The notes beneath the pieces were generated by a model. It saw only the letters and a list, made by a program, of their open reading frames with translations, was not told the DNA's origin and did no database searches. A stretch of 64,000 nt of DNA from contig NZ_CADFDB010000002.1 in NCBI RefSeq assembly GCF_902832845.1, positions 372,001-436,000 of the forward strand, in the 5' to 3' direction. Origin of the DNA: Burkholderia metallica (GTDB lineage: Bacteria; Pseudomonadota; Gammaproteobacteria; Burkholderiales; Burkholderiaceae). Positions 42,905 to 64,000 of the stretch are shown one piece after another. The translations under genes were made by a program, and so were the position numbers. Positions within the stretch are counted from its first letter, which is position 1. Every line of letters starts with the position of its first letter.

Positions 42905-43768
42905 CTATGCGCTGTCCATTACGCCGTCCGCCACGCACTGGGATCGCGCGGTCACCTCGCGGCGGTAGCGATTCAATTCCTGCGCGGTCGCGAACGTGCG
43001 CTCGAACAGGATCGACAGGTTGTGCAGGATGCGTTCGACGACCTTCTTTTCCCACTCGCCGTCGAAGCGGATCTGCTCGTCGAGCCAGCGCTCGAGCCAC
43101 TCCGGATCGGGCAGGCGCGACTGCACGGTGTCGCGCGGGAACAGCGCCTGGTTCACGTGCAGGTTGGTCGGGTGCAGCGGCTTCTCGGTGCGGCGCGCCG
43201 ACGCCATCAGCACGCCGATCTTCGCGAACGCCGCACGCGCGACGTCGCCGCAGTCGTTCAATGCCTTCTTCATATAGCGCAGGTATGCGCCGCCATGGCG
43301 CGCTTCATCGCGCGAGATCGTTTCGTAGATCTGCTTGATGACCGGCTCGGTGTGCCAGTCGGCCGCGCAGCGGTACCAGTGGTTCAGGCGGATTTCGCCG
43401 CAGAAGTGCAGCATCAGCGTTTCGAGCGGCGGCGCCGGGTCGAACTCGAAGCGCACCGCGTGCAGTTCCGCTTCGGTCGGCACCATTTCCGGCTTGAAGC
43501 GGCGCAGGTATTCCATCAGCACGAGCGAATGCTTCTGCTCTTCGAAGAACCACACGCTCATGAACGCGGAGAAATCGCTGTCGTGCCGGTTGTCGCGCAG
43601 GAACATCTCCGTCGCGGGCAACGCCGACCACTCGGTGATCGCGTTCATCCTGATCGTCTCGGCCTGCTCGTCGGTGAGCCGCGCGGCGTCGAACCTGTCC
43701 CACGGAATGTCCTTCTCCATGTCCCAGCGCACCGCTTCCAGCGATCTGAATAATTCCGGATAGAGCAT
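42905..43768 (-). CDS. Ferritin-like diiron protein (acyl-ACP desaturase-like)
   Basis: A soluble protein of about 287 residues with the two four-helix-bundle iron motifs: FFEEQKHS (EExxH) and SRDEARHGG (DExRH), plus further helix glutamates in HFCGEIRLNHWY. This resembles soluble acyl-ACP desaturases and related diiron oxidases. It is the second gene of the leftward arm, 40 bp after the membrane desaturase. ATG 43768 is used; a GTG at 43777 is an alternative and adds three residues (MTT). The most likely role is an O2-dependent oxidation or desaturation of a fatty acyl chain held on a carrier protein; hydroxylation is equally possible. Confidence 0.85.
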   Translation of the reverse strand: MLYPELFRSLEAVRWDMEKDIPWDRFDAARLTDEQAETIRMNAITEWSALPATEMFLRDNRHDSDFSAFMSVWFFEEQKHSLVLMEYLRRFKPEMVPTEAELHAVRFEFDPAPPLETLMLHFCGEIRLNHWYRCAADWHTEPVIKQIYETISRDEARHGGAYLRYMKKALNDCGDVARAAFAKIGVLMASARRTEKPLHPTNLHVNQALFPRDTVQSRLPDPEWLERWLDEQIRFDGEWEKKVVERILHNLSILFERTFATAQELNRYRREVTARSQCVADGVMDSA

Positions 43769-43808
43769 CGTCGTCACCGTCGTTCAAGGGCGTTCGCGCA
43801 CGTCGCGG

Positions 43809-44804
43809 TCATGCCGATTGCGTAGACGCCGGCGCCGCCGCTTCGGCGTCGGGCACACGGTCGTCCGCGTCGTCGTCCACCGTGCGCGGCGACAGCCGGC
43901 CGCGCAGCAGCGCGGAATAGAACTGCCGGTACGTGCGGTGGTAATAGCGGATGCGCGGCGCGATCGCGCCGTGCAGGTCGTGCAGCCGCTCGATCGGCAG
44001 GTTCGGCATCATGTGATGCTCGACGTGATAGTTGTTGCCGTTCGTGAACCACGTCATGAATGCGTTGCTCTCGATCGTCCGCGTGTTACGGAACGGGTCG
44101 GTGCTCGTCAGGTCGCAGCGGTAGTGCTCGGGCATCTCGACCAGCGCATGCACGGGCGCGGCCACGAACACGAGCGGCACGACCCACACCCACACGGCGA
44201 ACCACGTGTGCAGCGCGACCGACACGCCGGCCAGCAGCGCGATCGCCGCGACCATCAGCAGGTGATCGCGGCGGATCGCACGCGACACGAGCGGGTTGTC
44301 GCCGAAGCGCGCCCCCGGCACGACGAGTTTCGCGACGTTCTTCGCGAACTGGAGATAGTGCGCGGCCATCGACAGCCGCCACGCCCACAGGCCGAGATTG
44401 ACGACCGGGCTCGCGCCGTACTGGTCGCCGTAGTCGAAGAACTCCTTGTTCTCGGGCGTGCCGAGCAGCCGGTGATGGCGCAGGTGGCTGTCCTGGTATG
44501 CATGGAACGACACGAGCATCGGCATGCCGAGCAGCACGCCGAACACGATGTTCAGCCGCTTGCTCCGGAACCCCTGGTAGTGCAGCGCCTGATGCTGCAG
44601 CTCGACGCCGTGCGCATACATCGCATCGATCAGCAGGATACCGAAGATCTTCAGGATCACATACGTCGACAGCGCGAACAGCATCCCGTGCGCGATGAGC
44701 GCGACGTAGACCGCCAGCTTCAGCGAGAAGACGACGCCGCTCGGACGGCTCTTCATGTCTGCAACCGGTTTCTGGCGGGCGACAAGCGATGAGGTGACGG
44801 ACAA
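43809..44804 (-). CDS. Membrane fatty acid desaturase
   Basis: A 331-residue integral membrane desaturase/hydroxylase. Three histidine clusters are visible: HGVELQHQALHYQ, SFHAYQDSHLRHHRLLG and NGNNYHVEHHMMPNLP, which bind the non-heme diiron centre. Four hydrophobic helices flank them. The start is TTG 44804: AAGGAG lies 6 bases upstream, whereas the internal ATG at 44756 has no ribosome binding site. It is the first gene of the leftward arm, divergent from the fatty acyl-AMP ligase across 333 bp. It probably desaturates the acyl chain used by the cluster. A fatty acid desaturase-like gene was, as I recall, part of the afc antifungal locus. Confidence 0.93.
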   Translation of the reverse strand: MSVTSSLVARQKPVADMKSRPSGVVFSLKLAVYVALIAHGMLFALSTYVILKIFGILLIDAMYAHGVELQHQALHYQGFRSKRLNIVFGVLLGMPMLVSFHAYQDSHLRHHRLLGTPENKEFFDYGDQYGASPVVNLGLWAWRLSMAAHYLQFAKNVAKLVVPGARFGDNPLVSRAIRRDHLLMVAAIALLAGVSVALHTWFAVWVWVVPLVFVAAPVHALVEMPEHYRCDLTSTDPFRNTRTIESNAFMTWFTNGNNYHVEHHMMPNLPIERLHDLHGAIAPRIRYYHRTYRQFYSALLRGRLSPRTVDDDADDRVPDAEAAAPASTQSA

Positions 44805-45137
44805 AACGCTCTCCTTGGGCCGGACCCTGCCCGGCACGATGACGCGGCGACGCTGGCGCGCTGCCGGGTTGCAATTCTTCTGTGAGTCGATGCTTCGGAC
44901 AAACGAATTTTCCGAACGCATTGCATGACGCCCGCGCATGAGCGCACCACATCGTGAACTAGACGACTGGTCGAATGCGACCGACCGGTCACCTCGTGGA
45001 TGCGTTCCGCTCATGCATAGCGTGCGTAGATTCCGTTTGTCGCGTCGCATCGATCCGGCAAGAATCCTCCTCACTCGACGAACGGCGCCGCCGGCACCGT
45101 GGCCCGAGCGTCCGTGTTCCTCAAGGGGAGAATCCTC
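44805..45137. promoter_or_regulatory. Divergent promoter region of the biosynthetic cluster
   Basis: 333 bp between the desaturase (minus) and the acyl-AMP ligase (plus) starts. It must drive both arms. It contains the dyad at 44894-44916. No sigma-54 type -24/-12 element with correct spacing was found. Confidence 0.6.
44894..44916. promoter_or_regulatory. Dyad TTCGGA-N11-TCCGAA, possible LysR operator
   Basis: Perfect 6-bp arms with an 11-bp spacer, about 90 bp before the desaturase start and about 220 bp before the ligase start. Size and symmetry suit a LysR-type operator. The sequence TTCGGA..AACGA.TTTT recurs upstream of the nearby LysR gene (42378-42400). Confidence 0.45.
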
Positions 45138-46904
45138 GTGACGAAGTGCGCATCCACCATTCATCGCCTGATCGAATCGCTCGAGGACGTCGCGGGCGCG
45201 CTGCACCGCATGACGTTCGTCGACGAGGCCGGCAACGAGGCGGGCATCACGTACCGGCGCTTCGCGGAAGAAGTGTTTCGCCAGGCCGGCGCGCTGCGCG
45301 AACTCGGCGTGCGCGAGAACGACCTGGTGATGCTCGCATTGCCCGCGTCGGTCGAGCATGCGGCCGCGATGATGGCCTGCGTGATGACGGGCGCGCTGCC
45401 CTGCACCGTGCCCGTTCCCGCGCGCCGCGCCGCCGCCGGGCGGCAGGTGATCGACGTCGCCTGCGAGCTGTACCGGCCGCGCGTCGTCATCGCCGCGGAT
45501 GCGCAGGCCGCCGCGTGGCGCGACGCTGCATTCCCCGCGTCCTCCACCCGCGTCGTCGATCTCGAGATGCTGTCGAGCGCCGCGGATGCCGGCGGGCGCG
45601 CGCTGATCAGCGCGAAGCACGGCCGCGACCCGCATCACGTACAGCTCACGTCGGGTTCGACGTCGCACCCGAAGGCCGCGGTGCTCAGCCACGAGAACGT
45701 GATCGCGAACGTGCTCGGCATCGGCGGATCGGTGCGTTTCGACATCGCGGCCGGCGACGGCACTGCATCGTGGCTGCCGCTCTATCACGACATGGGGCTG
45801 CTCACGCTGCTGTCGAACATGCACTACCGCGCCCCGCTGCTGATGATGCAGCCGAACAGCTTCATCCGGAATCCGCTCGGCTGGCTGAAGCGCATCGCGT
45901 CGGCGCGCGCGACGACTACATCGGTGCCGACCTTCGCGCTGCGCTACTGCGTGCGCCGCTTCAATGCCGCCGCGATGGTAGGCGTCGACCTGTCCGCGTG
46001 CCGCAACATCTTCATCGGCGGCGAACGCGTGGACGACGCGACGCTGCGCGACTTCGCGGCGACGTTCGCGCCGTACGGTCTCGCCGCATCGGCGCTGCAG
46101 CCGTGCTACGGAATGGCCGAATCGACGCTCGCGGTATCGATGCATCGTGCGTGGCACGACGGCGCGATCGACGGCGCGCCGTACGTGATCGCCGACACGC
46201 TCGACCGGCGCGCGCTGATCGAGCGCCGCGACGCGCAGCCGGCCGCCGCGAATGACGGCGCCGCCGCCGCCAACACCGAAACCGTGCTCGCGATGGGCAC
46301 GCCGATCGACGGCATGGCGTTCCGGATTCTCGACGACGGCGACCATGCGCTGGCGAACCGCGCGGTGGGCGAAGTCGCGATCCGCGGCACGTCGGTGATG
46401 CTCGGCTACCTGAACCCCGACGACGGCTCGATCGCCGCGCCGCTGACGGCCGACGGCTGGTTCCGCACCGGCGACATCGGCTACGTCGCGGACGGCCAGC
46501 TTCATATCCTCGGGCGCAAGAAGGAAGTCATCATCATTCGCGGCAGTAACTACTTCCCGCACGAAATCGAGGAAGCGCTTGCGTCGCATCGCACGCTGCG
46601 CAAGAGCACCTGCATCGCGTTCGGGCTGCCCGACCCGGAGACCGGCACCGAGCGGCTGGTCGTCGCGATCGAAGCGCGGCCCGTCGATGCGACGCCGCAG
46701 ACGCGCGCCGAGTGCCAGCAACTGCTCGCGTCGCGCATCGGCTTCGCCGCGCAGGATCTGTGCTTCGTCGAACCCGGCTCGCTGCCGCGCACGACGAGCG
46801 GCAAGCTGCAGCGCGTGAAGTGCCGCGACCTGTATGCGAACGGCGCGCTGCCCGTGATCCACGCGCCGGCGGCCGCCGAAGCCGGCCACGGAGCGTACGC
46901 ATGA
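45138..46904 (+). CDS. Fatty acyl-AMP ligase (FAAL-like)
   Basis: A 588-residue adenylate-forming enzyme. Core motifs: VQLTSGSTSHPKAAVLSHEN, YGMAESTLAVS, TGDIGYVADGQLHILGRKKEVIIIRG and RTTSGKLQR with the catalytic Lys. The LTSGSTSHPK form and the AESTLAVS motif are typical of FAAL enzymes, which activate fatty acids and pass them to acyl carrier proteins rather than CoA. GTG 45138 follows GGGGAG. The stop overlaps the ATPase start (ATGA). It probably loads the carrier protein at 52026. Related acyl-ligase genes are, from memory, part of the afc locus. Confidence 0.92.
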   Translation: MTKCASTIHRLIESLEDVAGALHRMTFVDEAGNEAGITYRRFAEEVFRQAGALRELGVRENDLVMLALPASVEHAAAMMACVMTGALPCTVPVPARRAAAGRQVIDVACELYRPRVVIAADAQAAAWRDAAFPASSTRVVDLEMLSSAADAGGRALISAKHGRDPHHVQLTSGSTSHPKAAVLSHENVIANVLGIGGSVRFDIAAGDGTASWLPLYHDMGLLTLLSNMHYRAPLLMMQPNSFIRNPLGWLKRIASARATTTSVPTFALRYCVRRFNAAAMVGVDLSACRNIFIGGERVDDATLRDFAATFAPYGLAASALQPCYGMAESTLAVSMHRAWHDGAIDGAPYVIADTLDRRALIERRDAQPAAANDGAAAANTETVLAMGTPIDGMAFRILDDGDHALANRAVGEVAIRGTSVMLGYLNPDDGSIAAPLTADGWFRTGDIGYVADGQLHILGRKKEVIIIRGSNYFPHEIEEALASHRTLRKSTCIAFGLPDPETGTERLVVAIEARPVDATPQTRAECQQLLASRIGFAAQDLCFVEPGSLPRTTSGKLQRVKCRDLYANGALPVIHAPAAAEAGHGAYA

Positions 46905-47611
46905 CGGCCGCCCCGCTCACGCCGGTGCTCGAACTGCGCGACGTCTCACGCGTGTACGAGGGCGCGGGCCGCGTCGTCGCGGTGCGCGGCGCGACGATCT
47001 CGATCGGCCGGCGCGACGTCGTCGCGCTCGTCGGCCCCTCGGGCAGCGGCAAGAGCACGCTGCTCAACCTCGCCGGCTTTCTCGACGTGCCGAGCACCGG
47101 CGAGCGCTGGCTCGAAGGCCGCCGGATCGACGATGCGCCGGATACGCTCGAGCGGATCCGCCGCGAGCGCATCGGCTTCGTGTTCCAGCAGTTCAACCTG
47201 ATACCGGTGATGTCCGCGCTCGAGAACGTCGAGCTCGGCTGCTTCGCATGGGGCACGCCGCGCACGCGCCGCGAGCGCGCCCGCGCGATGCTCGACGCGG
47301 TGGGGCTCGCCGCGCGCGAACGCCACCGCCCCGGCGAGCTGTCCGGCGGCGAGCAGCAACGGGTCGCGCTGGCCCGCGCGCTCGCCAAGGAGCCGGCGAT
47401 CGTGATCGCGGACGAGCCGACCGCCAGCCTCGACAGCACCAACGCGCGGGCGGTGGCCGAGCTGATCCTCGACACCAACCGCACGCTGGGCACCGCCTTT
47501 CTGATTGCGTCGCACGACGATCGTCTGTGCGCGCACCTGCCGCGCCGCATCGAGATGCGCGACGGCGTACCGGGAGTGAATCGTGAACTGGTCGACGTTT
47601 GCGTGGCGTAA
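46901..47611 (+). CDS. ABC transporter ATPase (LolD/MacB type)
   Basis: A 236-residue ATPase with GPSGSGKST, the Q-loop VFQQFNLIPVMSALENVELG, signature LSGGEQQRVALARAL and Walker B VIADEPTASLD followed by SHDD. The pattern is that of LolD/MacB-type ATPases, which power mechanotransmission by FtsX-like permeases rather than substrate import. The gene is coupled to its neighbours by a 4-base overlap upstream and a 29-base overlap downstream with the permease. Inferred role: drives export of the cluster's lipid-like product. Confidence 0.93.
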   Translation: MTAAPLTPVLELRDVSRVYEGAGRVVAVRGATISIGRRDVVALVGPSGSGKSTLLNLAGFLDVPSTGERWLEGRRIDDAPDTLERIRRERIGFVFQQFNLIPVMSALENVELGCFAWGTPRTRRERARAMLDAVGLAARERHRPGELSGGEQQRVALARALAKEPAIVIADEPTASLDSTNARAVAELILDTNRTLGTAFLIASHDDRLCAHLPRRIEMRDGVPGVNRELVDVCVA

Positions 47612-48800
47612 CCTCTGGCGCAACAAGCGCCGTACCGTGCTCACGATGGCGATGATCGGCGTTGCCGCGTTCGCGTCGAGCCTCGCGCTCGGCTATGTGA
47701 TCGCGACCTTCGACGCGGTGCGCGAAGGGTCGATCGACAGCGGCGTCGGCCACGTGCAGGTGCTGCACCGCGGCTATCTCGACCTGATCGGCGAGCGGCC
47801 GCTGCAGTACGGGTTGAGCGCCGACGAGCAGGCCGCCGCAGCGCACGCGATCGCGGCGCTGCCCGGCGTCGCGACCACCGCGCGCGGCATCGACTTCGAC
47901 GGGCTGATCTCGAACGGCGACCTGAGCGACGGCTTCGTCGGCGAAGGCATCGAGCCGAACCGCGAGCCGCCCGGCTTCTTCGACTATCACACGGTGCTGT
48001 CGGGCCGCTACCTGTCGCCGACGAATGCCGGCACCGAAGTCGTCGTCGGCGCCGAACTCGCGCGCAAGCTCGGCGTGCACGTCGGCTCGGTCGTGCAGCT
48101 GATGGCGTCGACCGCGCACGGCGGCATCAACGCGACCGACGCGCAGATCGTCGGCGTGATGAGCACGGGCAACAAGGACGTCGACGAGCGGATCGTCGAC
48201 GTGACGTTCACGGCCGCGCAGGCGCTGCTGCGCACCGACCGCGCGTCGCGTATCGCGGTGTTCCTGTCGGACACGGCGCACACGCCGGCCGCCGCCGCGA
48301 CGCTGCGCGCCGCGCTGCCGACGCTCGACGTGAAGACCTGGGACCAGCTCGTGTCGCTCTATCACCAGGTCGTCGCGCTGTACAAGAACCAGTTCTCGGT
48401 GTTCGGCGCGATTCTCTGCCTGACCATCCTGCTGTCGATGAGCAACTGGATCCTGATGAGCATCGTCGAGCGCCGTCGCGAGATCTCGACCCTGCGTGCG
48501 CTCGGCGTGCCGGCTGCAACGGTGCGCGGTGTGCTGATCCAGGAGACCGCCTTTCTAGGCCTGCTGGGCGCCGCCGCGGGCATCGCGGCGGCGCTGCTGA
48601 CGATGGTCGCGCTCAACCACGCGCAGATCCATCTGCCCGCGCCGCCGGGCCGCGTGAAGCCGATCCTGCTCGAATTCGCGGTGTCGCCGGCCGCCGTGGC
48701 CGCCGTCGAAGGCGCGTTCGTCGCGCTCGGAGTGGCCGCCGCGCTGCTCGCGACGCTCGGGCTCGCCAAACGCAACATCCTCGAAGGACTCGCCCCATGA
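47583..48800 (+). CDS. FtsX-like ABC permease (LolE/MacB type)
   Basis: A 405-residue permease. One N-terminal helix (TVLTMAMIGVAAFASSLALGYVIA) leads to a large periplasmic domain of about 220 residues, followed by three C-terminal helices (FGAILCLTILLSMSNWILMSIVERRREISTLRALGVPA and two more), as in LolC/LolE. The conserved ERRREIxxLRALG motif couples to the ATPase. It starts at GTG 47583 within the ATPase gene and ends overlapping the LolA-like gene. With the ATPase it should extract a lipidic molecule from the inner membrane. Confidence 0.92.
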   Translation: MNWSTFAWRNLWRNKRRTVLTMAMIGVAAFASSLALGYVIATFDAVREGSIDSGVGHVQVLHRGYLDLIGERPLQYGLSADEQAAAAHAIAALPGVATTARGIDFDGLISNGDLSDGFVGEGIEPNREPPGFFDYHTVLSGRYLSPTNAGTEVVVGAELARKLGVHVGSVVQLMASTAHGGINATDAQIVGVMSTGNKDVDERIVDVTFTAAQALLRTDRASRIAVFLSDTAHTPAAAATLRAALPTLDVKTWDQLVSLYHQVVALYKNQFSVFGAILCLTILLSMSNWILMSIVERRREISTLRALGVPAATVRGVLIQETAFLGLLGAAAGIAAALLTMVALNHAQIHLPAPPGRVKPILLEFAVSPAAVAAVEGAFVALGVAAALLATLGLAKRNILEGLAP

Positions 48801-49537
48801 TTCGCATTCGCTCCCTGGCCGCCGCGCTCGTCGCGTGCGCGCCGCTCGTGCAGGCCGCCGACGCGCCGACGGCCCAGACCATGCTCGCCCGCGCCGACGC
48901 ATATCGCAGCACGGCCGCCGATACGCAGACGACCATCCAGATCACGAACGAAGTCGGCGGGCAGGCCGGCGACGCGACCCGCTACCTCGTCTACACGCGC
49001 GGCAACGGCGACACGCTCGCGCTCACGCGCAGCGGCGAGAACGACGGCCAGAAGTATCTCGCGACGACGCGCGGCCACTGGTTCTACGTGCCAAACACGC
49101 GCAGCGCGGTCCGCATCAACGGGATGCAACGGCTGCAGGGCGAGGTCGTGATCAGCGACATCACGCGCACGCACTGGGCGGACAGCTATCGCGCGTCGGC
49201 CGCGGCGGGCGCGACGACGATCGCCGGCAAGCCGGCCACCGAGCTCGACCTGACCGCGACCGACCCCGACAACGTGTACCCGACGATCAAGCTGTGGGTC
49301 ACGCCCGATACCGACGTGCCGGTGCGCGCGCAGTTCTTCCTCGCGAGCGGCCTGCTGTTTCGCAGCGCCGACTTCGCCGCGCCGGTCGATGCGAACGGGC
49401 GCAAGGTGATCCGCAAGATCACGTATCGCAACGAGATCGAGAAGCAGCGCGCGAGCGTCGTCGATATCCTCGACGGCCAGCCGCACCGGATTCCGTCGGG
49501 CTGGTTCAACCCCGACACGCTTGCCGATGGCCAGTGA
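48797..49537 (+). CDS. LolA-like outer membrane lipoprotein-sorting protein
   Basis: A 246-residue periplasmic protein. The signal peptide MIRIRSLAAALVACAPLVQAAD is followed by a LolA/LppX-type beta half-barrel: ADAYRSTAADTQTTIQI, NGDTLALTRSGENDGQKYLATT, FYVPNTRSAVRINGMQRLQGE and LWVTPDTDVPVRAQFFLASGLLFRS. Proteins of this group carry lipids or lipoproteins across the periplasm. It lies between the FtsX-like permease and the outer membrane barrel, so it probably shuttles the product between them. Its stop overlaps the start of the barrel gene. Confidence 0.87.
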   Translation: MIRIRSLAAALVACAPLVQAADAPTAQTMLARADAYRSTAADTQTTIQITNEVGGQAGDATRYLVYTRGNGDTLALTRSGENDGQKYLATTRGHWFYVPNTRSAVRINGMQRLQGEVVISDITRTHWADSYRASAAAGATTIAGKPATELDLTATDPDNVYPTIKLWVTPDTDVPVRAQFFLASGLLFRSADFAAPVDANGRKVIRKITYRNEIEKQRASVVDILDGQPHRIPSGWFNPDTLADGQ

Positions 49538-50846
49538 CCGCGACGCCCATGCCGACGCCCATCGTGACCGCCCTCGCCCGTCAACCAGCCGCAGCTGGCC
49601 GCGTGTCGCGCTCGCCGTTCCGCTGGCGCTCGGCTGCACGCTCGCGCACGGAGAATCGCTGATGGAACAGTTGAGCACGCTGAACGGCATCGCGTACGCC
49701 CGCTCGGTCGACAGCATGGACGGCCACGCGTTGCTCGGCCACCTGATCGGCGACGAGCCGCGCAACCTGCAGGAAGCGGGCGTGCTCGCGCGCATCGACG
49801 GCGAAAACCTGTTCCTGAACGCCCGCGCGGTGGCCGCCAACCACTCGCTCGGCGCGCAGGCCACCCGCTTCAACGAGGCCGGCGTGCGCTACGCGTTTGA
49901 CAACGGCATCACGCTCACGGCCGGCAAGCGGATCGATCCGCTCGACACGTCGCAGGCGTTCTTTCCGCTCGGCTTCTTCCAGAAGCGCGCGGCGACGGCC
50001 GACATCTACGACCGCTACGGCGACGTCGAAGGCACGCCGCTCGTCGAAGCGAAATGGGCCGGCGAGCAGACCACGGTGCAATTCATCGCCGGCGAAAACC
50101 GCACGCTGCGCAACGACGTCGACAACCGCGACGTGCAGGGCGCGACGCAGCTCGTGCGCGGGGCGTACAACTGGTCGGGCGGCTCGGCCGCGCTGCTCGC
50201 CGGCCGTCACGCGGGGCGCGGCGGCGCCGGCGCGACGCTGTCGTTCGACGTCGCGCGCTCGAACACCGTCTATGCGAGCGCGTGGCTCGAACGCGGCACG
50301 ACGCGGCCGCTGCCGGCGTTCATCGCGAACGGCACGCCGCTCGATTCCCCGAACGCATACGACGCCGTCGATCGCCGCAACGATCGCCAGGTCATGTGGC
50401 GCAGCGCGGTCGGCATGCAGAGCGCGCTGCCCGGCAACGTCTCGCTGATCGTCGAGTGGTCGCACGACGAAGCGCGTTACGACGCGAGCCAGTGGCGCCG
50501 GATGGTCGGCGCGGTGCGCGCGAACAACGCACTGCTGCCCGCCGCACCCGGCGCCGCGCTGGCCGGCCTCGGCGGCACGGCCGATTTCGTGAGCGTCGAC
50601 GGCAACCTGCGCGACTACCTGTTCGCACGTCTCGGCAAGAAGATCGGCCGCGTCGAGTATTCGCTGCGCGGCGTCTACTCGCCGCAAGACAAGGGCCTGC
50701 TCGCGATAGCGCAGGCCGTCGCCGACGTAAGCAAGCGCGTGAGCGTCGATGTCGCGGTCACCCGCGCGTTCTCCGACAGCAGTTCCGAGTACCGGATGGT
50801 CGGTCTCGGCACCCGTATCGACGCCGCCGTGCGCGTGCGCTTCTGA
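49527..50846 (+). CDS. Outer membrane beta-barrel protein, function unknown
   Basis: A 439-residue protein. The N-terminal 20 residues are Arg/His/Asp-rich, then a signal-like segment (VALAVPLALGCTLAHG) and a long series of alternating amphipathic strands with many aromatic and acidic residues, ending in ...TRIDAAVRVRF with the terminal Phe typical of outer membrane barrels. ATG 49527 overlaps the stop of the LolA-like gene. It resembles large porin-type outer membrane proteins seen beside Lol-like ABC systems, but no exact family is recognised. Likely role: receive or export the cluster product at the outer membrane. Confidence 0.8.
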   Translation: MASDRDAHADAHRDRPRPSTSRSWPRVALAVPLALGCTLAHGESLMEQLSTLNGIAYARSVDSMDGHALLGHLIGDEPRNLQEAGVLARIDGENLFLNARAVAANHSLGAQATRFNEAGVRYAFDNGITLTAGKRIDPLDTSQAFFPLGFFQKRAATADIYDRYGDVEGTPLVEAKWAGEQTTVQFIAGENRTLRNDVDNRDVQGATQLVRGAYNWSGGSAALLAGRHAGRGGAGATLSFDVARSNTVYASAWLERGTTRPLPAFIANGTPLDSPNAYDAVDRRNDRQVMWRSAVGMQSALPGNVSLIVEWSHDEARYDASQWRRMVGAVRANNALLPAAPGAALAGLGGTADFVSVDGNLRDYLFARLGKKIGRVEYSLRGVYSPQDKGLLAIAQAVADVSKRVSVDVAVTRAFSDSSSEYRMVGLGTRIDAAVRVRF

Positions 50847-50860
50847 CAGGAATCCTGCCC

Positions 50861-51967: not shown

Positions 51968-52025
51968 CCCACGCGACAGGCCGATCGATCCCGATCAACC
52001 CACTTCATTACCAGGAGCTCCTCTC

Positions 52026-52280: not shown

Positions 52281-52287
52281 CACGACG

Positions 52288-53172: not shown

Positions 53173-53173
53173 C

Positions 53174-53806
53174 ATGGTGCGACCCGTTCACTTCACCTAC
53201 CGGATCGAGCGCGATGCGCGGCAGCCGGTCGCGGTCGCCGCGAGCGCGTACCGGATGCCGCTCGACACGCCGGCCGACTATGCGCGCGCCGCGCTCGCGG
53301 AAAGCGCGGGCGACGTATACGACGCTGGCGACGCGGGCGACACGCTCGGCGGCGAACGCCGCGTGCTGCTCGACCACGTCCAGTATTTCGCGTTCCTCGC
53401 GGAAATCGCGGTGCGCATCCGCGACGCCGTGCATCCGGACGCGCGCGTGTTCATCGAAGTCTGCGCGCCGTACTTCGGTGCGCTGCCGGCCGAACTGCTC
53501 GCGCCGCACGTGCTGCTCGGCGTGCACCTGTACGACGAAGCGCTGCGCGATGCCGCACGCGGCGCCCCGGTCGTGTGGATCGGCGACCGCATCCTGCGCG
53601 ATGCGGAGTTCGCCGGCGACAACCGCGTGTGCTGCGCGATCTGGCCCGCGCGGCTCGCCGACGCGTTCGACGCGCAGTTGCGCGGCCCATGGCCGTCGTA
53701 TGCGATCCGTCTCGAACCGCACCCGGCGACGCCACGCGCCGCCGCCCCGCTGCTTACCGATTCCGCCCATCATTCCGGCGCCGCCGCGCGGCCGGGGAGA
53801 CCTTGA
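53174..53806 (+). CDS. Hypothetical protein of the biosynthetic cluster (210 aa)
   Basis: A 210-residue soluble protein. It has hydrophobic strands (FIEVCAPYF, LLAPHVLLGVHLY, APVVWIGDRIL) and an Ala/Pro-rich disordered tail. It lies between KAS-fold protein A and the second diiron protein, starting 2 bases after the previous stop. Strand-loop patterns hint at an alpha/beta fold, and it may partner one of the KAS-like proteins. No family was recognised. Confidence 0.75.
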   Translation: MVRPVHFTYRIERDARQPVAVAASAYRMPLDTPADYARAALAESAGDVYDAGDAGDTLGGERRVLLDHVQYFAFLAEIAVRIRDAVHPDARVFIEVCAPYFGALPAELLAPHVLLGVHLYDEALRDAARGAPVVWIGDRILRDAEFAGDNRVCCAIWPARLADAFDAQLRGPWPSYAIRLEPHPATPRAAAPLLTDSAHHSGAAARPGRP

Positions 53807-53807
53807 C

Positions 53808-54791: not shown

Positions 54792-54794
54792 ACC

Positions 54795-56949: not shown

Positions 56950-56973
56950 ACCCATCCAACAGAGGAGCCGATC

Positions 56974-58548
56974 ATGAACGCCCTGATCAGCGTCGCCGAC
57001 CTGCTCGAACACGGCGCGCAGCGTTGGCCGCAGCATCCCGCCTATGCCGACGGCGGCGGCACGATGACCTACGAACAGCTCGCGCGCGCAGTCCGCCGCG
57101 CGGCCGCCGCGCTCGCGTCGCGCGGCGTGCGGCCCGGCGAGCGTGTCGCGATCTACGCGCCGAAGCGCGTCGAAACCGTGGTCGCGATGCTCGCGGCCAA
57201 CGCGCTCGGCGCGATCTTCGTGCCGGTCAATCCGCAGTTGAAGGAAGCGCAGATCGAACACATCGTCACCGACAGCGGCGCGGCGCTGTTCATCACGGGC
57301 GCGCAGCGGATCAAGCGCTTGCCGGCGCTCGCCGCGCTCGTCGGTGAACGCGCGATGCTGATCGAGGAGCTGGCCGACGCGATCGGCGCGTCCGGCGCCG
57401 ACACTTCAGCATCGTTCGCCGCCGGCCGCTCGGTCGACGACGATCCCGCCGCGCTGCTCTACACGTCCGGCTCGACCGGCAAGCCGAAAGGCGTGGTCGT
57501 GTCGCATCGCAACCTGGTGTCGGGCGCGTTCAGCGTCGCCGCTTACCAGGCGCTGGCCGACGACGACGTCGTGCTCGGCGTGCTGCCGCTCAGTTTCGAT
57601 GCGGGCCTGAGCCAGCTCACGACCGCGCTCGCCGTCGGCGCGTGCTACGCGCCGCTCGATTTCCTGCAGCCGGCCGAGGTGCCGCGCCATTGCGACGCAT
57701 TCGGCGTGACGTCGATCACCGGCGTGCCGCCGTTGTGGATGCAGCTCGCGTCCACCGGCTGGAGCGATACCGCCCGCACGCGGATCCGCCGCTTCGCGAA
57801 CACGGGCGGCCATCTCGCGACCCCGCTGCTGCACCGGCTGCAGGCGCTGTTCACGAACGCCGCGCCGTACCTGATGTACGGACTGACCGAAGCGTTCCGC
57901 TCGACGTACCTGCCGCCGGCCGACGCCGCCCTGCGGCCGACGTCGATCGGCAAGGCCGTGCCGAACGCCGAAATCCTCGTGCTGCGCGCGGACGGCAGCG
58001 AATGCGCGGCCGACGAGCCCGGCGAACTCGTGCATCGCGGCGCGTTCGTCACGCTCGGCTACTGGAACCGGCCCGAGCTGACCGCGCAGCGCTTTCGCGC
58101 GCTGCCGCGCCGGCACGGCGAGATTCCGCGCGCCGACGTCGCGGTGTGGTCCGGCGACATCGTGCGCCGCGACGCGGACGGCTACCTGTACTTCGTCGCG
58201 CGCGGCGACGACATGATCAAGACGTCCGGCTATCGCGTGAGCCCGACCGAGGTCGAGGACGTGCTGTTCGCGCTGCCCCACATCCGCGAGGCCGCGGTGT
58301 TCGGCGTGCCGCACGCGTCGCTCGGCGAGGCGATCGCCGCATGCGTCGTGTCGACGCTCGACGCCGACGCATGCCGCGCCGACATCGCGCGCGCGTGCCG
58401 CGACGCATTGCCCACCTACATGAACCCGCTCGTCGTCGAATCGCTGCCCGCGTTGCCGCGCAACCCGAACGGCAAGATCGACCGCCCCGCGCTGAAAAAC
58501 CAGTACCGCGACGCGTTCGCGCACACGAACGAGGAGACCGCCGCATGA
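56974..58548 (+). CDS. AMP-forming acyl-CoA/acyl-ACP ligase
   Basis: A 524-residue adenylate-forming ligase. Core motifs: LLYTSGSTGKPKGVVVSH, YGLTEAF, RGDDMIKTSGYRVSPTEVED and NPNGKIDR with the catalytic Lys. Unlike the ligase at 45138, it has a classic acyl-CoA ligase pattern. A ribosome binding site (GAGGAG) precedes ATG 56974, and its stop overlaps the next start (ATGA). It may activate a second acid building block, perhaps the amino acid or hydroxy acid handled by the neighbouring decarboxylase, or a short acyl chain. Confidence 0.9.
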   Translation: MNALISVADLLEHGAQRWPQHPAYADGGGTMTYEQLARAVRRAAAALASRGVRPGERVAIYAPKRVETVVAMLAANALGAIFVPVNPQLKEAQIEHIVTDSGAALFITGAQRIKRLPALAALVGERAMLIEELADAIGASGADTSASFAAGRSVDDDPAALLYTSGSTGKPKGVVVSHRNLVSGAFSVAAYQALADDDVVLGVLPLSFDAGLSQLTTALAVGACYAPLDFLQPAEVPRHCDAFGVTSITGVPPLWMQLASTGWSDTARTRIRRFANTGGHLATPLLHRLQALFTNAAPYLMYGLTEAFRSTYLPPADAALRPTSIGKAVPNAEILVLRADGSECAADEPGELVHRGAFVTLGYWNRPELTAQRFRALPRRHGEIPRADVAVWSGDIVRRDADGYLYFVARGDDMIKTSGYRVSPTEVEDVLFALPHIREAAVFGVPHASLGEAIAACVVSTLDADACRADIARACRDALPTYMNPLVVESLPALPRNPNGKIDRPALKNQYRDAFAHTNEETAA

Positions 58549-59636
58549 CCTTGTCGACGCTCGATGAAACCTGCCTCGGCGCGCGCCGCGTCGCCGCGCC
58601 CGGCACGCTCGCGCTGTCGGGCGGCGTCGTGGTGCTGCCGCCGTCGGTCGTGTTCAGCGCGATCCAGGCGCAGGAACGCCATCCCGGCTACCGCCACCTG
58701 CTGCTGCCGCAGGCCCGCTTCGCGCGGCCGCGCGGGATGGGCGCGCTGACGCCCGACGAAGGCACGCGCCTCGCGCCGGGCGGCCGGCCCACGCTGCGGG
58801 TCGCGCCGCCCGGGCGCAGCCTCGCCGACCTCGCCGCCGACGCGGCGCTCGACCTGCGCGACCAGCTCGGCTCCGCGCAACTGGCCCGCACGACCCACGT
58901 GATCGTCGCGAGCTGCGCGCTCAACGAAGGCATCGGCGATTCGGTCGTCGGGCGCATGCAGTACGAACTCGGGCTGCAGCGCGTGACGCCGTTCGCGCTC
59001 GGCCAGAACGGCACGCTCGGCTGGTATTCCGCGTTGATGCTGCTCGACGGGCTGCTCGACGAAGGCGACCAGGCGCTCGTGATCCTCAGCGACAAGTGGC
59101 TCTACCCGTTCTTCCGCCAGTTCGGCGACCTGGTCGGCTACGGCGACGCGGCCGCCGCGCTGCTCGTGTCGCGTGCGGGCCCGACGCCCGAGCCGGCCGA
59201 CTGGGGCGGCGTGCGATCCGTCGCGGTCGAATTCGGGCCGTCGATCGCCGATCCGTGGGCCGACGCGCCGGTCACGCTGCGCGACACGCTCGCGCCGGTC
59301 GCCGCACGGGCGATCCGCCGCGCGCTCGACCACGCGAACCTGCGCGCGAACCAGATCGACTGGTGCGTGCCGCCCGGTTTCGATCCGGGCTTCGCCGCGC
59401 GCGTGGCCGACGCCGCGTCGATCCCGGTCGCCGCGCGCATCCAGCATGAAGCCGCGGGCCACCTGTCGTCGGCCGAATCGGCGGCCGCACTGATCCGGCT
59501 CGCCGGCGCGCTCGACGAAGGCGAACGCCGCACGGTGCTCGTGTGGGATGCGGCGCTGCACGGCGCGGCGGCGGCGGCCGTCGTCGACCTCGCCGGCGGC
59601 CTCGACGCCGCGCTCGATATCGAAGGAGACGCGTGA
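58545..59636 (+). CDS. KAS III-fold protein C: active-site Cys and His missing
   Basis: A 363-residue thiolase-fold protein. FALGQNGTLGWYSALMLLDGLL aligns with the KAS III nucleophile elbow, but the Cys is replaced (Gln154-Asn155). The HQAN position reads VPPGFDPG, so the His is also missing. GHLSSAESAAAL retains the Gly-His pair (His305) seen in proteins A and B. Core strands such as LVILSDKWLYPF and GYGDAAAALLVS match the fold. It is therefore probably a non-catalytic partner of one of the other KAS-like proteins, similar in concept to a chain-length factor. Its stop overlaps the start of the dehydrogenase gene. Confidence 0.75.
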   Translation: MTLSTLDETCLGARRVAAPGTLALSGGVVVLPPSVVFSAIQAQERHPGYRHLLLPQARFARPRGMGALTPDEGTRLAPGGRPTLRVAPPGRSLADLAADAALDLRDQLGSAQLARTTHVIVASCALNEGIGDSVVGRMQYELGLQRVTPFALGQNGTLGWYSALMLLDGLLDEGDQALVILSDKWLYPFFRQFGDLVGYGDAAAALLVSRAGPTPEPADWGGVRSVAVEFGPSIADPWADAPVTLRDTLAPVAARAIRRALDHANLRANQIDWCVPPGFDPGFAARVADAASIPVAARIQHEAAGHLSSAESAAALIRLAGALDEGERRTVLVWDAALHGAAAAAVVDLAGGLDAALDIEGDA

Positions 59637-61486
59637 TGAGCGCCTACAAGGTGAGCCTGCGCGAACTGCGCTTCTTTCTGTGGGAACTGTTCGAAGCCGA
59701 CCGGCGCTTCCTGACCGAGCCCAACCCGTACGGCACGCACGACCGCGCATCGATCGACGCGCTGCTCGAACGCGCGCGCGACTTCGCGCTCGACCTCGGC
59801 CGCAGCTATCAGCAGGCGGACGTCGAGGGCTGCACGCTGCTCGACGACGGCCAGGTGCGCATTCCGTCGCATTTCCACGCGCTGTGGGCGCGCTTTCGCG
59901 ACGAATGGTCGAACACGCTGTTCGGCACCGCGCACGGGCTGCCGCCGATCGTCACGCAGATGATCTACGAGATGTTCATGGGCGCGAACCCGTCGTTCAT
60001 GACGTACGGCGGCTTCACGCGCCCCGCGATCAAGCTGCTGCAGATGCACGGCACGCCGCACCAGAAGGCGTTGATCGCGCCGCTCGAAGCGTACCGCTGG
60101 GACGCATGCTTCTGCGCGACCGAACCGCAGGCCGGCACCGACCTCACCGCGGTCGCACTGCGCGCGACGCCGCTCGAACGCGACATCTACGCGATCGACG
60201 GCGAGAAGGTCTACATCTCCGCCGGCATGCACGAGCTGACCGAGAACACGCTGTACTTCGTGCTCGGCCGCATCGACACCGCGTCGCCCGACTCGTTCTC
60301 GCTGTCGTGCCTCGTCGTGCCGCGCTTCTGGCCGGACGAGGAGACGGGCGAACTGCAGCCGAACCACGTCGACTGCATCGGCCTGCCGCGCAAGATGGGG
60401 CTCAAGGGCTGCGCGAACACGCATCTCGTGTTCGGCGCGAACGGCACGACCCGAGGCTGGCTGCTCGGCGGCCGGCGCAACGTCGGCCTGCTGCAGTTGA
60501 TGCCGCTGATGAACCAGGCGCGGATGAGCACGGGCATGTTCGGCGTCGGCGTCGCGTCGAGCGCGTACCTGCACGCAGTCGAATACGCGGGGCGCCGGCT
60601 GCAGGGCCGGCCTATCGAGCGCGCATCGAACACCAACGCCGCACGTGTCGCGATCGTCGAGCACGCGGACGTGCAGCGCATGCTCGTCGACATGAAAAGC
60701 CGTGTCGACGGCTGCCGCGGCCTGCTCGGCAAGCTCGCGGCGACCGCGACGCGCGCGGCGATGCTCGAAGCGACGCCCGATGCCGACCCGGCCGAGATCG
60801 AGCGCCATCGCAAGCTCCAGTTGCTGCTGACGCCGATCTGCAAGGCGTTCATCTCCGACCAGGCATGGCGGATCTGCGAAACCGCGATCCAGGTGCACGG
60901 CGGGCTCGGCTATACCGACGCGAGCCCCGTCGAGCAGAACGCGCGCGACGTGAAGATCCTGTCGATCTGGGAAGGCACGAACTACATCCAGGCGCAGGAC
61001 CTCGTGCGCGACAAGCTCGGCTTCGGCCGCCATTCGCGGCTGATCCAGTACTACCGCGACGAGCTCGACGTGTTTCTCGCACGCCAGCATCACGCGGGCA
61101 CGCACGCGGAACTGCGCCCGCTGTTCGACGCGCTGCGCGCGGGCGCCGACCGGATCGCCGCCGCGCTCGACGACATCGCGCGCGACGTGCAGGACGGCCA
61201 CACGCACCGCAGCAGCCAGTTCTACACGCGCTTTCTCGAGATGTTCGGCATCGTCACGTCGGCGTGGGTGCTGCTCGAATCGGCGACGATCGCCGCGCGC
61301 CGGCTCGACGCGCCGGAAACGGCCGACACGCCTGCCGAACTCGCGTTCTATCGCGGCAAGCTGAAAAGCGCGCGCTACTACTTCGCGAACGTGCTGCCCG
61401 TCGTCGACCAGCACGCGGCCGTGATCGCCACGATGGCGCAGGCGGCGATCAGCGTCAGCAGCGAAGAACTCGCGCAGGTGGAATGA
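59636..61486 (+). CDS. Acyl-CoA dehydrogenase (long form)
   Basis: A 616-residue flavoenzyme with the N-terminal helical domain, a middle domain (CFCATEPQAGTDLTAV, IDGEKVYISAGMHEL) and a C-terminal domain with ETAIQVHGGLGYTDASPVEQNARDVKILSIWEGTNYIQ (read in parts), including the catalytic Glu of WEGTN. The extra C-terminal helices make it a long-form member like those with AidB- or very-long-chain-type architecture. AAGGAG precedes ATG 59636. It probably introduces an alpha,beta double bond into an acyl thioester, possibly carrier-bound. Confidence 0.92.
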   Translation: MSAYKVSLRELRFFLWELFEADRRFLTEPNPYGTHDRASIDALLERARDFALDLGRSYQQADVEGCTLLDDGQVRIPSHFHALWARFRDEWSNTLFGTAHGLPPIVTQMIYEMFMGANPSFMTYGGFTRPAIKLLQMHGTPHQKALIAPLEAYRWDACFCATEPQAGTDLTAVALRATPLERDIYAIDGEKVYISAGMHELTENTLYFVLGRIDTASPDSFSLSCLVVPRFWPDEETGELQPNHVDCIGLPRKMGLKGCANTHLVFGANGTTRGWLLGGRRNVGLLQLMPLMNQARMSTGMFGVGVASSAYLHAVEYAGRRLQGRPIERASNTNAARVAIVEHADVQRMLVDMKSRVDGCRGLLGKLAATATRAAMLEATPDADPAEIERHRKLQLLLTPICKAFISDQAWRICETAIQVHGGLGYTDASPVEQNARDVKILSIWEGTNYIQAQDLVRDKLGFGRHSRLIQYYRDELDVFLARQHHAGTHAELRPLFDALRAGADRIAAALDDIARDVQDGHTHRSSQFYTRFLEMFGIVTSAWVLLESATIAARRLDAPETADTPAELAFYRGKLKSARYYFANVLPVVDQHAAVIATMAQAAISVSSEELAQVE

Positions 61487-61487
61487 C

Positions 61488-62747
61488 ATGGACACGACAC
61501 TTAATCACGGCACTACCGTCACGCCTGCCACGAATGCGTCGTCCGGCGACGCACCGCGCAACCTGCTCGGCCGCCCCGCCACCCGCCACCGCGGCACCGA
61601 CATCGACGGCGCGACGCTCGAACCCGAAGCGCTGCGCGTGCGCGATCTCGACCTGAACGCGCTGATCGGCGCGACGACGTTCGAAGGCGCACTCGCGCAT
61701 CTGTGGTTCGACGTCGCGCCGGGCAGCGCCGCGCATCGCACGCACGAAGCGGCGATCGGCGCGCGGCTCGCGACGTTCGCCGATGCGCTGGCGCCCGGCT
61801 CGGCCGCGCAGTCCTTCGCAGCAGATCTCGGCGCGGCCGGCGTCGCGCCGGTGTTCGCGGCCGCGTCCGGCCTGCTGCGCGGCTTCGACGACGTGACCGC
61901 GCGCGTGCGCGGCGACGCCGCGCCGGACGACGCCGATCTCGACACGATGCTGCTGTGCGCGGCCGCCGCGCCGTTCCTGCTGCGTGCGGCGATCGAAGGC
62001 CGCCCGTTCGCCGCGCGCGACGATGCGGCCGGCGCGTCGCTCGACGGCGCCGCGACGCAAGCCCGTCGCATGCTCGTGCTGACCGGCGCGACGCGCACCG
62101 ACGCACCGGCGCAGGCGGCGATGGACATGCTGCTCGTCGCGTGGCACGCCGGCTTCGGCTACATCACGCCGACCGTGCTCGCGCCGCGCGTCGCGATCGG
62201 CACCGGCGTGACGCTCACGCAGGCGATCGCGTCCGGTTTCCTCGCGAGCGGACCGTCGCACGTCGGCGCGGCGCTCGAAGCGATGCAGTGGCTCGCCGCG
62301 CTCGTGCGCGCGATCCCCGGCGGCACCGATGCACCGGCCGCCGCGCTCGATGCGGCCGGGCGCGCGGCGATCGATGCGACGCTCGACGCGAAACGCACGC
62401 TGTACGGCTTCGGCCATCCGCTGTTCGTCGCCGACCCGCGGCCGCCGCACATGCGCGGCCGGTTCGCCACATGCGGCTTCGACGGCGCGTACGTGACGCT
62501 GTTCGACGCGTGCTGCGCGCAGGCCGACGCGCGCCGCGCGTTGCGGCCGAACATCGATTTCCTGACCGCCGCGACGCTGCTCGAACTCGGTGTCGCCGCG
62601 CCGTCGTGGGGTGTCGGCGTCGGACTCGGCGCGCGCATCGCGGCGATGGCCGCGCATGCGGTCGAGCGCCGGCGCCGCCCGGCTTTCGGCGTCAACAGCG
62701 CGACCGCGCGACGGCTGCTGGCCGCCGTGCCGGTCGGCTGGTTGTGA
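61488..62747 (+). CDS. Citrate synthase/methylcitrate synthase homologue
   Basis: A 419-residue protein of the citrate synthase fold. All three catalytic positions can be read: His258 in SGPSHVGAALEAM, His310 in YGFGHPLFVADPRPP and Asp357 in RPNIDFLTAATL. The N-terminal 35 residues are low-complexity. The family normally condenses acetyl- or propionyl-CoA with a 2-oxo acid. In a secondary cluster it suggests C-C bond formation between an acyl thioester and a keto acid. The motif FGHPLF in place of FGHRVY is a change near the oxaloacetate-binding Arg, which may mean a different acceptor. Confidence 0.85.
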   Translation: MDTTLNHGTTVTPATNASSGDAPRNLLGRPATRHRGTDIDGATLEPEALRVRDLDLNALIGATTFEGALAHLWFDVAPGSAAHRTHEAAIGARLATFADALAPGSAAQSFAADLGAAGVAPVFAAASGLLRGFDDVTARVRGDAAPDDADLDTMLLCAAAAPFLLRAAIEGRPFAARDDAAGASLDGAATQARRMLVLTGATRTDAPAQAAMDMLLVAWHAGFGYITPTVLAPRVAIGTGVTLTQAIASGFLASGPSHVGAALEAMQWLAALVRAIPGGTDAPAAALDAAGRAAIDATLDAKRTLYGFGHPLFVADPRPPHMRGRFATCGFDGAYVTLFDACCAQADARRALRPNIDFLTAATLLELGVAAPSWGVGVGLGARIAAMAAHAVERRRRPAFGVNSATARRLLAAVPVGWL

Positions 62748-62782
62748 ACCCTTCTCCCTCCGCACTCAGCCAAAGGAACGTC

Positions 62783-63445
62783 ATGCTGCTCAAGAACCTG
62801 CGCCCGGCGAACGACTACGATCGCTTCGCCACCGAAACGCTCGAACCGTGGGACCTGCTGTTCATCAGCCGCATCCGCCAGCTCGCGCGCGCGATGACGC
62901 CCGGCACGATCGCCGACATCGGCACGGCCACCGGCGTCGTGCCGGTGCGGCTCGCGACCGATCCGGCGATGCGCGGCTGGCGCTACGTCGGCATCGATCT
63001 CGATCCGGCGATGCTCGACGAAGGCCGCCCGCGCATCCACGACCTCGGTCTCGACGACACGATCGAGATGCGCGTGGGCGACGCGCTCGCGCTGCCGTTC
63101 GACGACGGCACGCTGACGATGGCCGTCGGCCGCGCGACGCTGCACCATCTGCCCGACAAGGCGCTGAGCCTCACCGAGATGTATCGCGTACTGGAGCCGG
63201 GCGGGATCGCGCTCGTGCACGACATGCGCCGCGACGCGCCGCAGCACCTGCTCGACCGCTTCACCGAGATGCGCGCCGCCGCCGACTATCCGCCGACCCA
63301 CGTCGAGGAGAAGATCACGCTCGACGAAGCGCACGCGCTCGTCGCCGAAGCCGGTCTCGCCGACGTCGCGTCGATCTACAGCCCGAGCGCGGGGCTCGGC
63401 GCGCTCGGCTTCGAGATCCTGCTGAAGAAACCGGCGCTGGCCTGA
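62783..63445 (+). CDS. Class I SAM-dependent methyltransferase
   Basis: A 220-residue methyltransferase. Motif I IADIGTATGVVPVRLA, the acidic GIDLDPAMLDE, GDALALPFDDG and HHLPDKALSLTEMYRVLEPGG are all visible (UbiE/methyltransf_11 pattern). A GGAAC site precedes ATG 62783. It is probably an O-, N- or C-methyltransferase acting on the cluster product; the acceptor is not deducible. Confidence 0.9.
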   Translation: MLLKNLRPANDYDRFATETLEPWDLLFISRIRQLARAMTPGTIADIGTATGVVPVRLATDPAMRGWRYVGIDLDPAMLDEGRPRIHDLGLDDTIEMRVGDALALPFDDGTLTMAVGRATLHHLPDKALSLTEMYRVLEPGGIALVHDMRRDAPQHLLDRFTEMRAAADYPPTHVEEKITLDEAHALVAEAGLADVASIYSPSAGLGALGFEILLKKPALA

Positions 63446-63448
63446 GCG

Positions 63449-64000
63449 ATGACCGACCTCGCCTTCCTCGCCGCGCATGCCGCCGCACGGCTCGGCGCCG
63501 ACGACGTGCACTGCGCGGCGGTCGCGCCCGGCGCGACGCTGCCGTTGTGCGTGACGCCGCGCAGCGCCGAACTCGCGACGTCGCCGGAGATGTTCGTCGC
63601 GTGGTACCGCTCGCGGCTCGACACGATCGACACGCTGCTCGACGCGTGCGGCGCGCTGCTGTGGCGCGGCTTCGCGGTGCCCGACACCGCTGCGTTCGGC
63701 CGCCTCGGCGCGCTGTATCCGGCGCACGCGAACGGCTACACGGCGGGCGCCGCGCCGCGCAGGCAGATCGACGGCCGGGTGTACGAGTCGACCCGCATGC
63801 CGCCGCCGTTCAAGATCGGGCTGCACCAGGAGATGGCCTACATGCCCGCATTTCCGCGCCTCGTCGCGTTCTACTGCCGGCAGCCGGCCGACGCGGGCGG
63901 CGAGACGCCGATCTGCGACATGCGGCGCGTGACGGCGCGCGTGCCGGCCGCGCTGCGCGAACGGTTCGCCGAGCGCGGCGTGATGTACCTGCGCAATTTC
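63449..64000 (+). CDS. TauD-like Fe(II)/2-oxoglutarate dioxygenase (3' end outside window)
   Basis: The first 184 residues are present and the gene runs off the right edge. ALLWRGFAVPDTAAF and LHQEMAYMPAFPRLVAFYC match the TauD/SyrP/clavaminate synthase family, with an H-x-E iron motif (His and Glu of LHQEM), as in clavaminate synthase, instead of the commoner H-x-D. The distal His and the 2-oxoglutarate-binding Arg lie outside the window. It begins 3 bases after the methyltransferase stop. It is likely a hydroxylase or other oxidative tailoring enzyme. Confidence 0.88.
   Translation, partial: MTDLAFLAAHAAARLGADDVHCAAVAPGATLPLCVTPRSAELATSPEMFVAWYRSRLDTIDTLLDACGALLWRGFAVPDTAAFGRLGALYPAHANGYTAGAAPRRQIDGRVYESTRMPPPFKIGLHQEMAYMPAFPRLVAFYCRQPADAGGETPICDMRRVTARVPAALRERFAERGVMYLRNF

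Follow-up and report, generated by a model that had tools for sequence, protein, structure and literature searches.

A probable afc (AFC-BC11) biosynthetic cluster in Burkholderia metallica, an AfcD paralogue, and the relation of AfcQ to exosortase A-associated ligases

The window, meaning the whole 64,000-nucleotide stretch analyzed here, comes from a Burkholderia metallica assembly of 7.55 Mb in 37 contigs (G000:C2:372001-436000). We called genes by codon usage in the window and in its own right flank, and we scanned the predicted proteins with Pfam and NCBIfam (release 20.0). This analysis identified a cluster of 24 biosynthetic genes, with two on a minus arm (42905-43777 and 43809-44756) and 22 on a plus arm (45114-68682); the window holds 19 of these genes whole and part of a twentieth, which its end truncates, and the other four sit in the right flank. 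Based on the features below, listed by window position, the region is almost certainly a complete afc cluster that would make the lipopeptide AFC-BC11 or a very close congener.

41314-42306, minus strand: LysR regulator, ShvR orthologue (BCAS0225 position); LysR domains
42905-43777, minus strand: AfcD, diiron protein like acyl carrier protein (ACP) desaturases; FA_desaturase_2 at 31.6 bits (cut-off 22.7), AurF slightly below its cut-off
43809-44756, minus strand: AfcC, membrane FA_desaturase; PF00487 E 5e-38, histidine boxes
45114-46904, plus strand: AfcA, fatty acyl-AMP ligase (FAAL); AMP-binding, with FAAL families all below their cut-offs
46901-47611, plus strand: ATP-binding cassette (ABC) exporter ATPase, LolD/MacB type; one of AfcB/G/H/I, letter by elimination
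47583-48800, plus strand: MacB/FtsX-type permease; one of AfcB/G/H/I
48797-49537, plus strand: LolA-like outer-membrane lipoprotein-sorting protein; PF17131 E 1.4e-23, one of AfcB/G/H/I
49662-50846, plus strand: probably AfcI, outer-membrane channel; no Pfam match, assigned from position
50861-51967, plus strand: AfcJ, dehydrogenase type; marginal acyl-CoA dehydrogenase match (E 0.06), otherwise assigned from PMC12186527
52026-52280, plus strand: AfcK, the sole carrier protein; PP-binding E 6.5e-7, GIDSL with Ser40
52288-53172, plus strand: AfcL, acyltransferase with the fold of ketoacyl-ACP synthase III (KAS III); invariant Cys111, FabH fold match of a low-confidence model
53174-53806, plus strand: AfcM, without known family; no Pfam match, no fold match
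53808-54791, plus strand: AfcN, AurF-like diiron protein; AurF E 2e-16
54795-55784, plus strand: AfcO, KAS III-like; family matches under cut-offs
55774-56949, plus strand: AfcP, pyridoxal phosphate (PLP) decarboxylase; family scans, best PDB match BtrK, an ACP-linked glutamyl decarboxylase
56974-58548, plus strand: AfcQ, putative ligase adenylating the side-chain carboxylate of L-Asp; TIGR03098, Arg309, Lys501
58545-59636, plus strand: AfcR, KAS III-like; profile against KAS III structures, E 1.5e-7
59636-61486, plus strand: AfcE, acyl-CoA dehydrogenase-like (BCAS0208 position); clear family match
61488-62747, plus strand: AfcS, citrate synthase homologue (BCAS0207 position); E 7e-20
62783-63445, plus strand: AfcT, S-adenosylmethionine O-methyltransferase; family scan
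63449-64522 (window ends at 64000), plus strand: AfcU, TauD-type dioxygenase; family scan
64536-65549, plus strand: AfcV; right flank, beyond the window
65542-66621, plus strand: AfcW; right flank, beyond the window
66683-67225, plus strand: AfcX; right flank, beyond the window
67252-68682, plus strand: AfcF; right flank, beyond the window
69067-71976: DctM and DctP, C4-dicarboxylate transporter genes; flank of the cluster, as in J2315

An earlier, sequence-only reading had described two divergent arms of stand-alone enzymes at 42905-64000, and gene calling and family scans bear this out. The membrane desaturase, two diiron proteins, two AMP ligases, single carrier protein, and PLP decarboxylase that it listed all appeared in family scans, and the citrate synthase homologue, methyltransferase, dioxygenase, and dedicated export genes (46901-49537, ABC and LolA-like) were likewise found. 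Its three KAS III-fold proteins are recognizable to different degrees: AfcR by profile, AfcO below family cut-offs, and AfcL, which has no sequence match, solely by the fold of a low-confidence model (pLDDT, the predicted local distance difference test, 54) that matches FabH (Foldseek E 7.7e-7). As for the two acyl-CoA dehydrogenase-like proteins, the match of AfcE is clear, and that of AfcJ is marginal and leans on the published assignment. Pfam scans of the 24 proteins turned up no condensation or ketosynthase family, in agreement with the noted lack of any polyketide synthase (PKS) or nonribosomal peptide synthetase (NRPS) module. The cluster was also expected to run past the window; when the right flank was extended, five genes ended beyond 64000, the last of them at 68682. 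The proposed start at 42905 leaves out the adjoining LysR gene.

AfcM had no Pfam family in 10 of 10 members, no PDB sequence matched it at an E value below 0.04, and its model (pLDDT 65) had no fold match better than E 0.39. The assignment of AfcM to a uridine diphosphate (UDP)-glycosyltransferase type in PMC12186527 is neither supported nor excluded by these family and fold searches.

Identity and product of the cluster

PMC6301696 describes an afc locus of 24 genes in two divergent operons, numbers shvR BCAS0225, afcE BCAS0208, a citrate synthase BCAS0207, and an ABC transporter BCAS0204, and places a C4-dicarboxylate transporter at the far end. If the genes of our cluster are counted from the right as BCAS0201 onwards, the ABC ATPase, the citrate synthase homologue, the acyl-CoA dehydrogenase, and the LysR gene land on the published numbers, and the 24 genes plus shvR, in order, give the published count of 25. 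The ShvR-type LysR gene adjoins the cluster, and the C4-dicarboxylate transporter flank is the one seen in J2315. The published residues that we checked are kept as well: AfcK Ser40, AfcL Cys111, and AfcQ Arg309 and Lys501 (published as Arg311 and Lys503, both with an offset of 2).

In best segments, 23 of the 24 proteins are 90-99% identical to the B. puraquae copy (G328), a comparison in which AfcE was split by the boundary of the compared pieces and AfcD was cut by a contig end (93% over 58%). Using megablast, we aligned the cluster part of the window to B. cenocepacia and B. arboris replicons with 92% DNA identity across its whole length; in B. cenocepacia CMCC(B)23006, 25 of 25 genes were matched, some through partial best segments. 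The afc clusters of B. orbicola Mc0-3, B. puraquae, and B. pyrrocinia DSM 10685 have the same gene set, order, arms, ShvR, and checked residues, and relative to the published clusters (PMC12186527) the differences here amount to species-level divergence only.

Of the 65 genomes of the genus, 21, including our own, had an AfcQ match at E <= 1e-150. A standard set was found in 15 other genomes, with matches to 24 of 24 genes and best segments 81-100% identical (AfcE was split by piece boundaries, and G328 is cut by a contig end, leaving AfcD partial and ShvR outside). ShvR lay within the compared stretch in 14 of these 15, the remaining stretch (G328) ending at a contig edge, and it was present at 89-97% identity in 15 of the 20 AfcQ-carrying relatives. 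The earlier suggestions of an afc-like, ShvR-regulated locus and of gene order conserved in Burkholderia are supported by these matches. Other carriers deviate from the standard set. In G337 the set is full, and AfcQ matches residues 1-361 only, so that this gene looks interrupted in an otherwise full cluster. G340 and G336 have the set at 61-93% identity, with the left end hidden by contig edges. G333 has a shorter afc-type variant that retains A, J-R, E, and S-X; its stretch holds no close C, D, F, first ABC/LolA genes, AfcI, or ShvR, and a 24% match to AfcC follows AfcX. In G312, D, O (partial), P, Q, R, E, S, T, and U lie near AfcQ, with an AfcF homologue ~20 kb off and an AfcC homologue 0.7 Mb off, a pattern that fits a bol-type cluster.

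Beyond the B. cepacia complex, a search with AfcM led to Robbsia andropogonis, where A-U are collinear at 49-90% identity with ShvR at 66%; this locus record (L104) stops inside AfcU. Matches to AfcC (65%, just past ShvR by coordinates) and to AfcF lie on contig C2 of G363, which, because the coordinates fit, is probably a record of the same locus, with afcC on the far side of shvR. The view, from L104 alone, that Robbsia andropogonis has no AfcC was rejected on account of that 65% match beyond ShvR.

The product of the afc cluster was solved in June 2025. According to PMC12186527, nuclear magnetic resonance and mass spectrometry identified AFC-BC11 (C36H55N5O11) as an O-methyl-malic fatty acyl chain with three dehydro-beta-alanines and a dehydro-lysine; the work was done with B. 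orbicola Mc0-3 and B. puraquae DSM 103137, which replaced the lost original producer. The sequence-only reading had held the chemistry and product structure to be unsettled, and it was mistaken on this point. It would have taken the absence of a close characterized cluster as support, and it named a match of the whole set to a pathway with a known product as grounds for giving up that view; such a match is what we found. Its term "lipid-type" needs correction too, as AFC-BC11 is a lipopeptide, assembled through non-canonical NRPS logic, rather than a plain lipid (PMC12186527). The earlier observation is nonetheless real and well described; the system, including its product and core assembly, is already known, and we claim no new chemistry for the cluster.

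In PMC12186527 the core assembly was rebuilt in vitro without condensation domains, and mutant profiles were reported for afcC, D, F, I, J, L, M, N, O, P, S, T, and shvR. Using orthologues of the present enzymes, that study found that AfcQ adenylates L-Asp and loads AfcK, that AfcP decarboxylates the AfcK-bound Asp to beta-alanine, and that AfcQ attaches the next Asp to the free amine, which elongates the chain without a condensation domain; AfcA then puts a C14 acyl group on tri-beta-alanyl-AfcK, and AfcL loads a tri-beta-alanyl model chain and hands it to Lys-CoA. By homology, AfcQ would act on the side-chain carboxylate of Asp. AfcL, with its KAS III fold, probably carries the chain on Cys111, which is invariant in the compared sequences. 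Mutants indicate that AfcC dehydrogenates the C-terminal Lys, and they link AfcS and AfcF to the joining of a citrate-derived head to the acyl tail, and AfcT to O-methylation of that head; desaturation of the beta-alanine residues by AfcE is proposed (PMC12186527). Because the gene set, order, and reported residues are kept, the present copy would be expected to have the same activities, running from beta-alanine iteration by AfcQ, AfcK, and AfcP through acylation by AfcA to transfer onto Lys-CoA by AfcL. VinN/VinO/VinL of the vicenistatin pathway resemble this system, with a free-standing ligase that acts on the side-chain carboxylate of an aspartate-type amino acid and with decarboxylation of an ACP-bound substrate. 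VinN/VinO/VinL supply one beta-amino acid unit in a PKS pathway, unlike the iterating AfcQ.

Several points weigh against assigning the cluster to AFC-BC11. AfcJ and AfcM, both essential in the published mutants, are without firm family support here; PMC12186527 leaves open the final release, Lys-CoA formation, tail coupling, and what exactly AfcJ, M, N, O, and R do, and the sequence does not fill in these steps. A diverged afc-type cluster making another congener, with a different acyl length or terminal amino acid, might be suspected from the variability of AfcM, AfcS, and AfcF, the most variable afc genes, and from the diverged G333 and G312, which retain part of the set only; however, all 24 genes are present here and are near the standard copies, including those of a producer species, and we regard such a cluster as very unlikely. 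A cluster for a bolagladin-type lipodepsipeptide would share homologues of the enzymes for the methoxy acyl head and dehydro-beta-alanine (BolQ, BolR, BolS, and BolE). The bol cluster of B. gladioli (PMC7756342) is indeed like afc in its Asp-loading ligase, ACP-bound decarboxylation, dehydro-beta-alanine dehydrogenase, and citrate-derived methoxy acyl head. Its bolH, however, encodes a tetramodular NRPS, whereas afc has none and iterates AfcQ instead; since Pfam scans of all 24 proteins showed no family of NRPS condensation domains, gene content refutes a bol-type assignment, to which we give practically no credence. A complete afc cluster for AFC-BC11 or a very close congener is the assignment we retain, and the interest left lies in two side results, the AfcD paralogue and the AfcQ/AfcP/carrier logic common to exosortase A loci, neither of which we found in the searchable papers.

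AfcD and its paralogue

A second intact copy of AfcD is encoded in the same genome on another contig (G000:C4:12744-13622), among genes that, by eye, look like housekeeping genes. AfcD and this paralogue share 266 of 290 residues and, at the DNA level, 805 of 872 bases, and the motifs EQKH (at 80) and DEARH (at 157) are unchanged. When the 65 genomes were searched at E <= 1e-100, exactly two AfcD matches occurred in 17 of 17 genomes with the standard cluster (our own, the 15 others, and G337), although contig ends leave both G328 matches incomplete; the cluster copy of G329 has one stop codon within its matched stretch. Among the 44 genomes without an AfcQ match (E <= 1e-150), 38 have one AfcD match, two have none, and four have two, the second copy in those four being 59-73% identical and none above 73%. 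The other four AfcQ carriers have three matches (G312), one match (G333), or fragments only (G336 and G340).

The published afcD mutant has a wild-type profile, and AfcD was reported to be dispensable (PMC12186527); an earlier study, cited in PMC6301696, found afcD important for antifungal activity. Because a near-identical paralogue exists and 17 of 17 standard-cluster genomes have two copies, the afcD knock-out does not settle the role of AfcD: its result may be masked by redundancy with the paralogue, which suggests a second look at the published knock-out. The main text of PMC12186527 contains neither "paralog" nor "redundan", and no search aimed at printed AfcD paralogues was made.

It is also quite conceivable, if somewhat short of probable, that AfcD is truly unneeded, a passenger for which the paralogue is irrelevant. 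The wild-type profile of the mutant (PMC12186527) and the stop codon in the G329 cluster copy are consistent with this, as are the lack of a linked afcD in Robbsia andropogonis and of afcD in the cluster stretch of G333. Yet Robbsia andropogonis and G333 each have one copy elsewhere (86% and 92%), the bol-like G312 has a copy (89%) within 4 kb of AfcQ, and the study cited in PMC6301696 speaks for the importance of afcD. A role for AfcD in forming the acyl double bond is no more than a guess, and the absence of a linked copy in Robbsia and G333 counts against it.

With megablast, AfcD DNA at 43015-43752 matched genes carried by Cupriavidus and Methylibium plasmids at ~82% identity, and the same plasmids gave no match to any other part of the query.

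AfcQ and the exosortase A-associated ligases

AfcQ scores 637 bits against TIGR03098, above the curated cut-off of 592; this family is named "acyl-CoA ligase (AMP-forming), exosortase A system-associated" in NCBIfam release 20.0. Some match to TIGR03098 occurs in 299 of the 300 genomes searched in the order, and 54 of these, including our own, exceed the cut-off; 12 of 14 control genomes have a match, and none exceeds the cut-off. The decarboxylase family TIGR03099 is over its cut-off in 48 of the 54 genomes and exosortase A (XrtA) in 45, whereas our own genome has no XrtA match and no TIGR03099 match over cut-off. Of the 55 ligase rows, 43 have a decarboxylase gene at most 500 bases away on the same strand (compared with 52 decarboxylase rows; our own pair and one contig-end fragment are counted). 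The decarboxylase gene is upstream of the ligase gene in our own genome and downstream in the other 42 pairs.

The best 30 of the 55 TIGR03098 ligase rows are 43-48% identical to AfcQ. In a motif search that did not require Arg, all 30 keep the aspartate-recognition Arg of AfcQ, which PMC12186527 equates with VinN Arg331. For two further residues, Asp230 and Ser299, which we mapped onto positions 209 and 277, the best 30 ligases have Asp209 in 30 of 30 and Ser (20) or Thr (10) at position 277, where AfcQ has Thr; in this alignment the frames were chosen by an Arg-containing motif, so it is valid only for non-Arg positions. As a control, we aligned AfcA and 19 AMP-ligases of our own genome (of 22 other rows): 16 of these ligases and AfcA have no Arg, and 3 of the 19 have a gap at that position. 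A small carrier protein was found in 13 of 20 exosortase neighbourhoods with a profile built from 11 of these proteins, those 11 included; a strict motif search and AfcK as query found no exosortase carrier protein.

Because AfcQ scores in TIGR03098 and the best 30 ligases keep the Arg and Asp, we predict that the exosortase set makes a beta-alanyl-carrier protein. We lean slightly toward a scheme in which the exosortase A "acyl-CoA ligase" would load the side-chain carboxylate of L-Asp onto a carrier, its neighbour would decarboxylate the bound Asp, and the carrier would hold beta-alanine, possibly oligo-beta-alanine, for an exopolysaccharide, a lipid, or a sorted protein. The set is like afc in the Asp and Arg of the best 30 ligases and in the adjoining decarboxylase gene; afc differs in that our own genome has no exosortase A and in its decarboxylase, since the TIGR03099 score of AfcP (95 bits) is far under the cut-off of 478 and hardly above its score for LysA (86). 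This low score, and the weak likeness of AfcK to the exosortase carrier proteins, weigh against the beta-alanine scheme. Moreover, the three residues do not discriminate by length of side chain, which would leave Glu or methylated Asp as possible substrates.

If the scheme is true, a ligase/decarboxylase pair named only by its association with exosortase A would gain a concrete biochemical function. N-acyl amino acid synthases reportedly occur near exosortase genes, as Craig and colleagues are said to have described in 2011. The proposed function was not stated in the literature that we could search on the exosortase/PEP-CTERM ligase, decarboxylase, and carrier, a search that most subscription papers lay outside; the accessible text of the 2006 PEP-CTERM system paper is without "ligase", "decarboxylase", and "acyl carrier".

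Flanks of the cluster

An 80-codon frame (68715-68957) follows AfcF and is the least conserved among the frames compared beside the cluster, with 37-84% identity in the 17 relatives that have a match and no match in G333 and G312; it may be an unannotated BCAS0200. On the other side, the gap between a major facilitator superfamily (MFS) gene and the ShvR gene (41261-41314) is 52 bases here, versus ~1 kb in B. cenocepacia CMCC(B)23006, and the hydrolase gene reported on the ShvR/MFS side in J2315 (PMC6301696) may be absent. The idea that the flanking MFS gene is itself variable was dropped: the compared stretches ended before this gene, and it has a 96% match in B. cenocepacia CMCC(B)23006.

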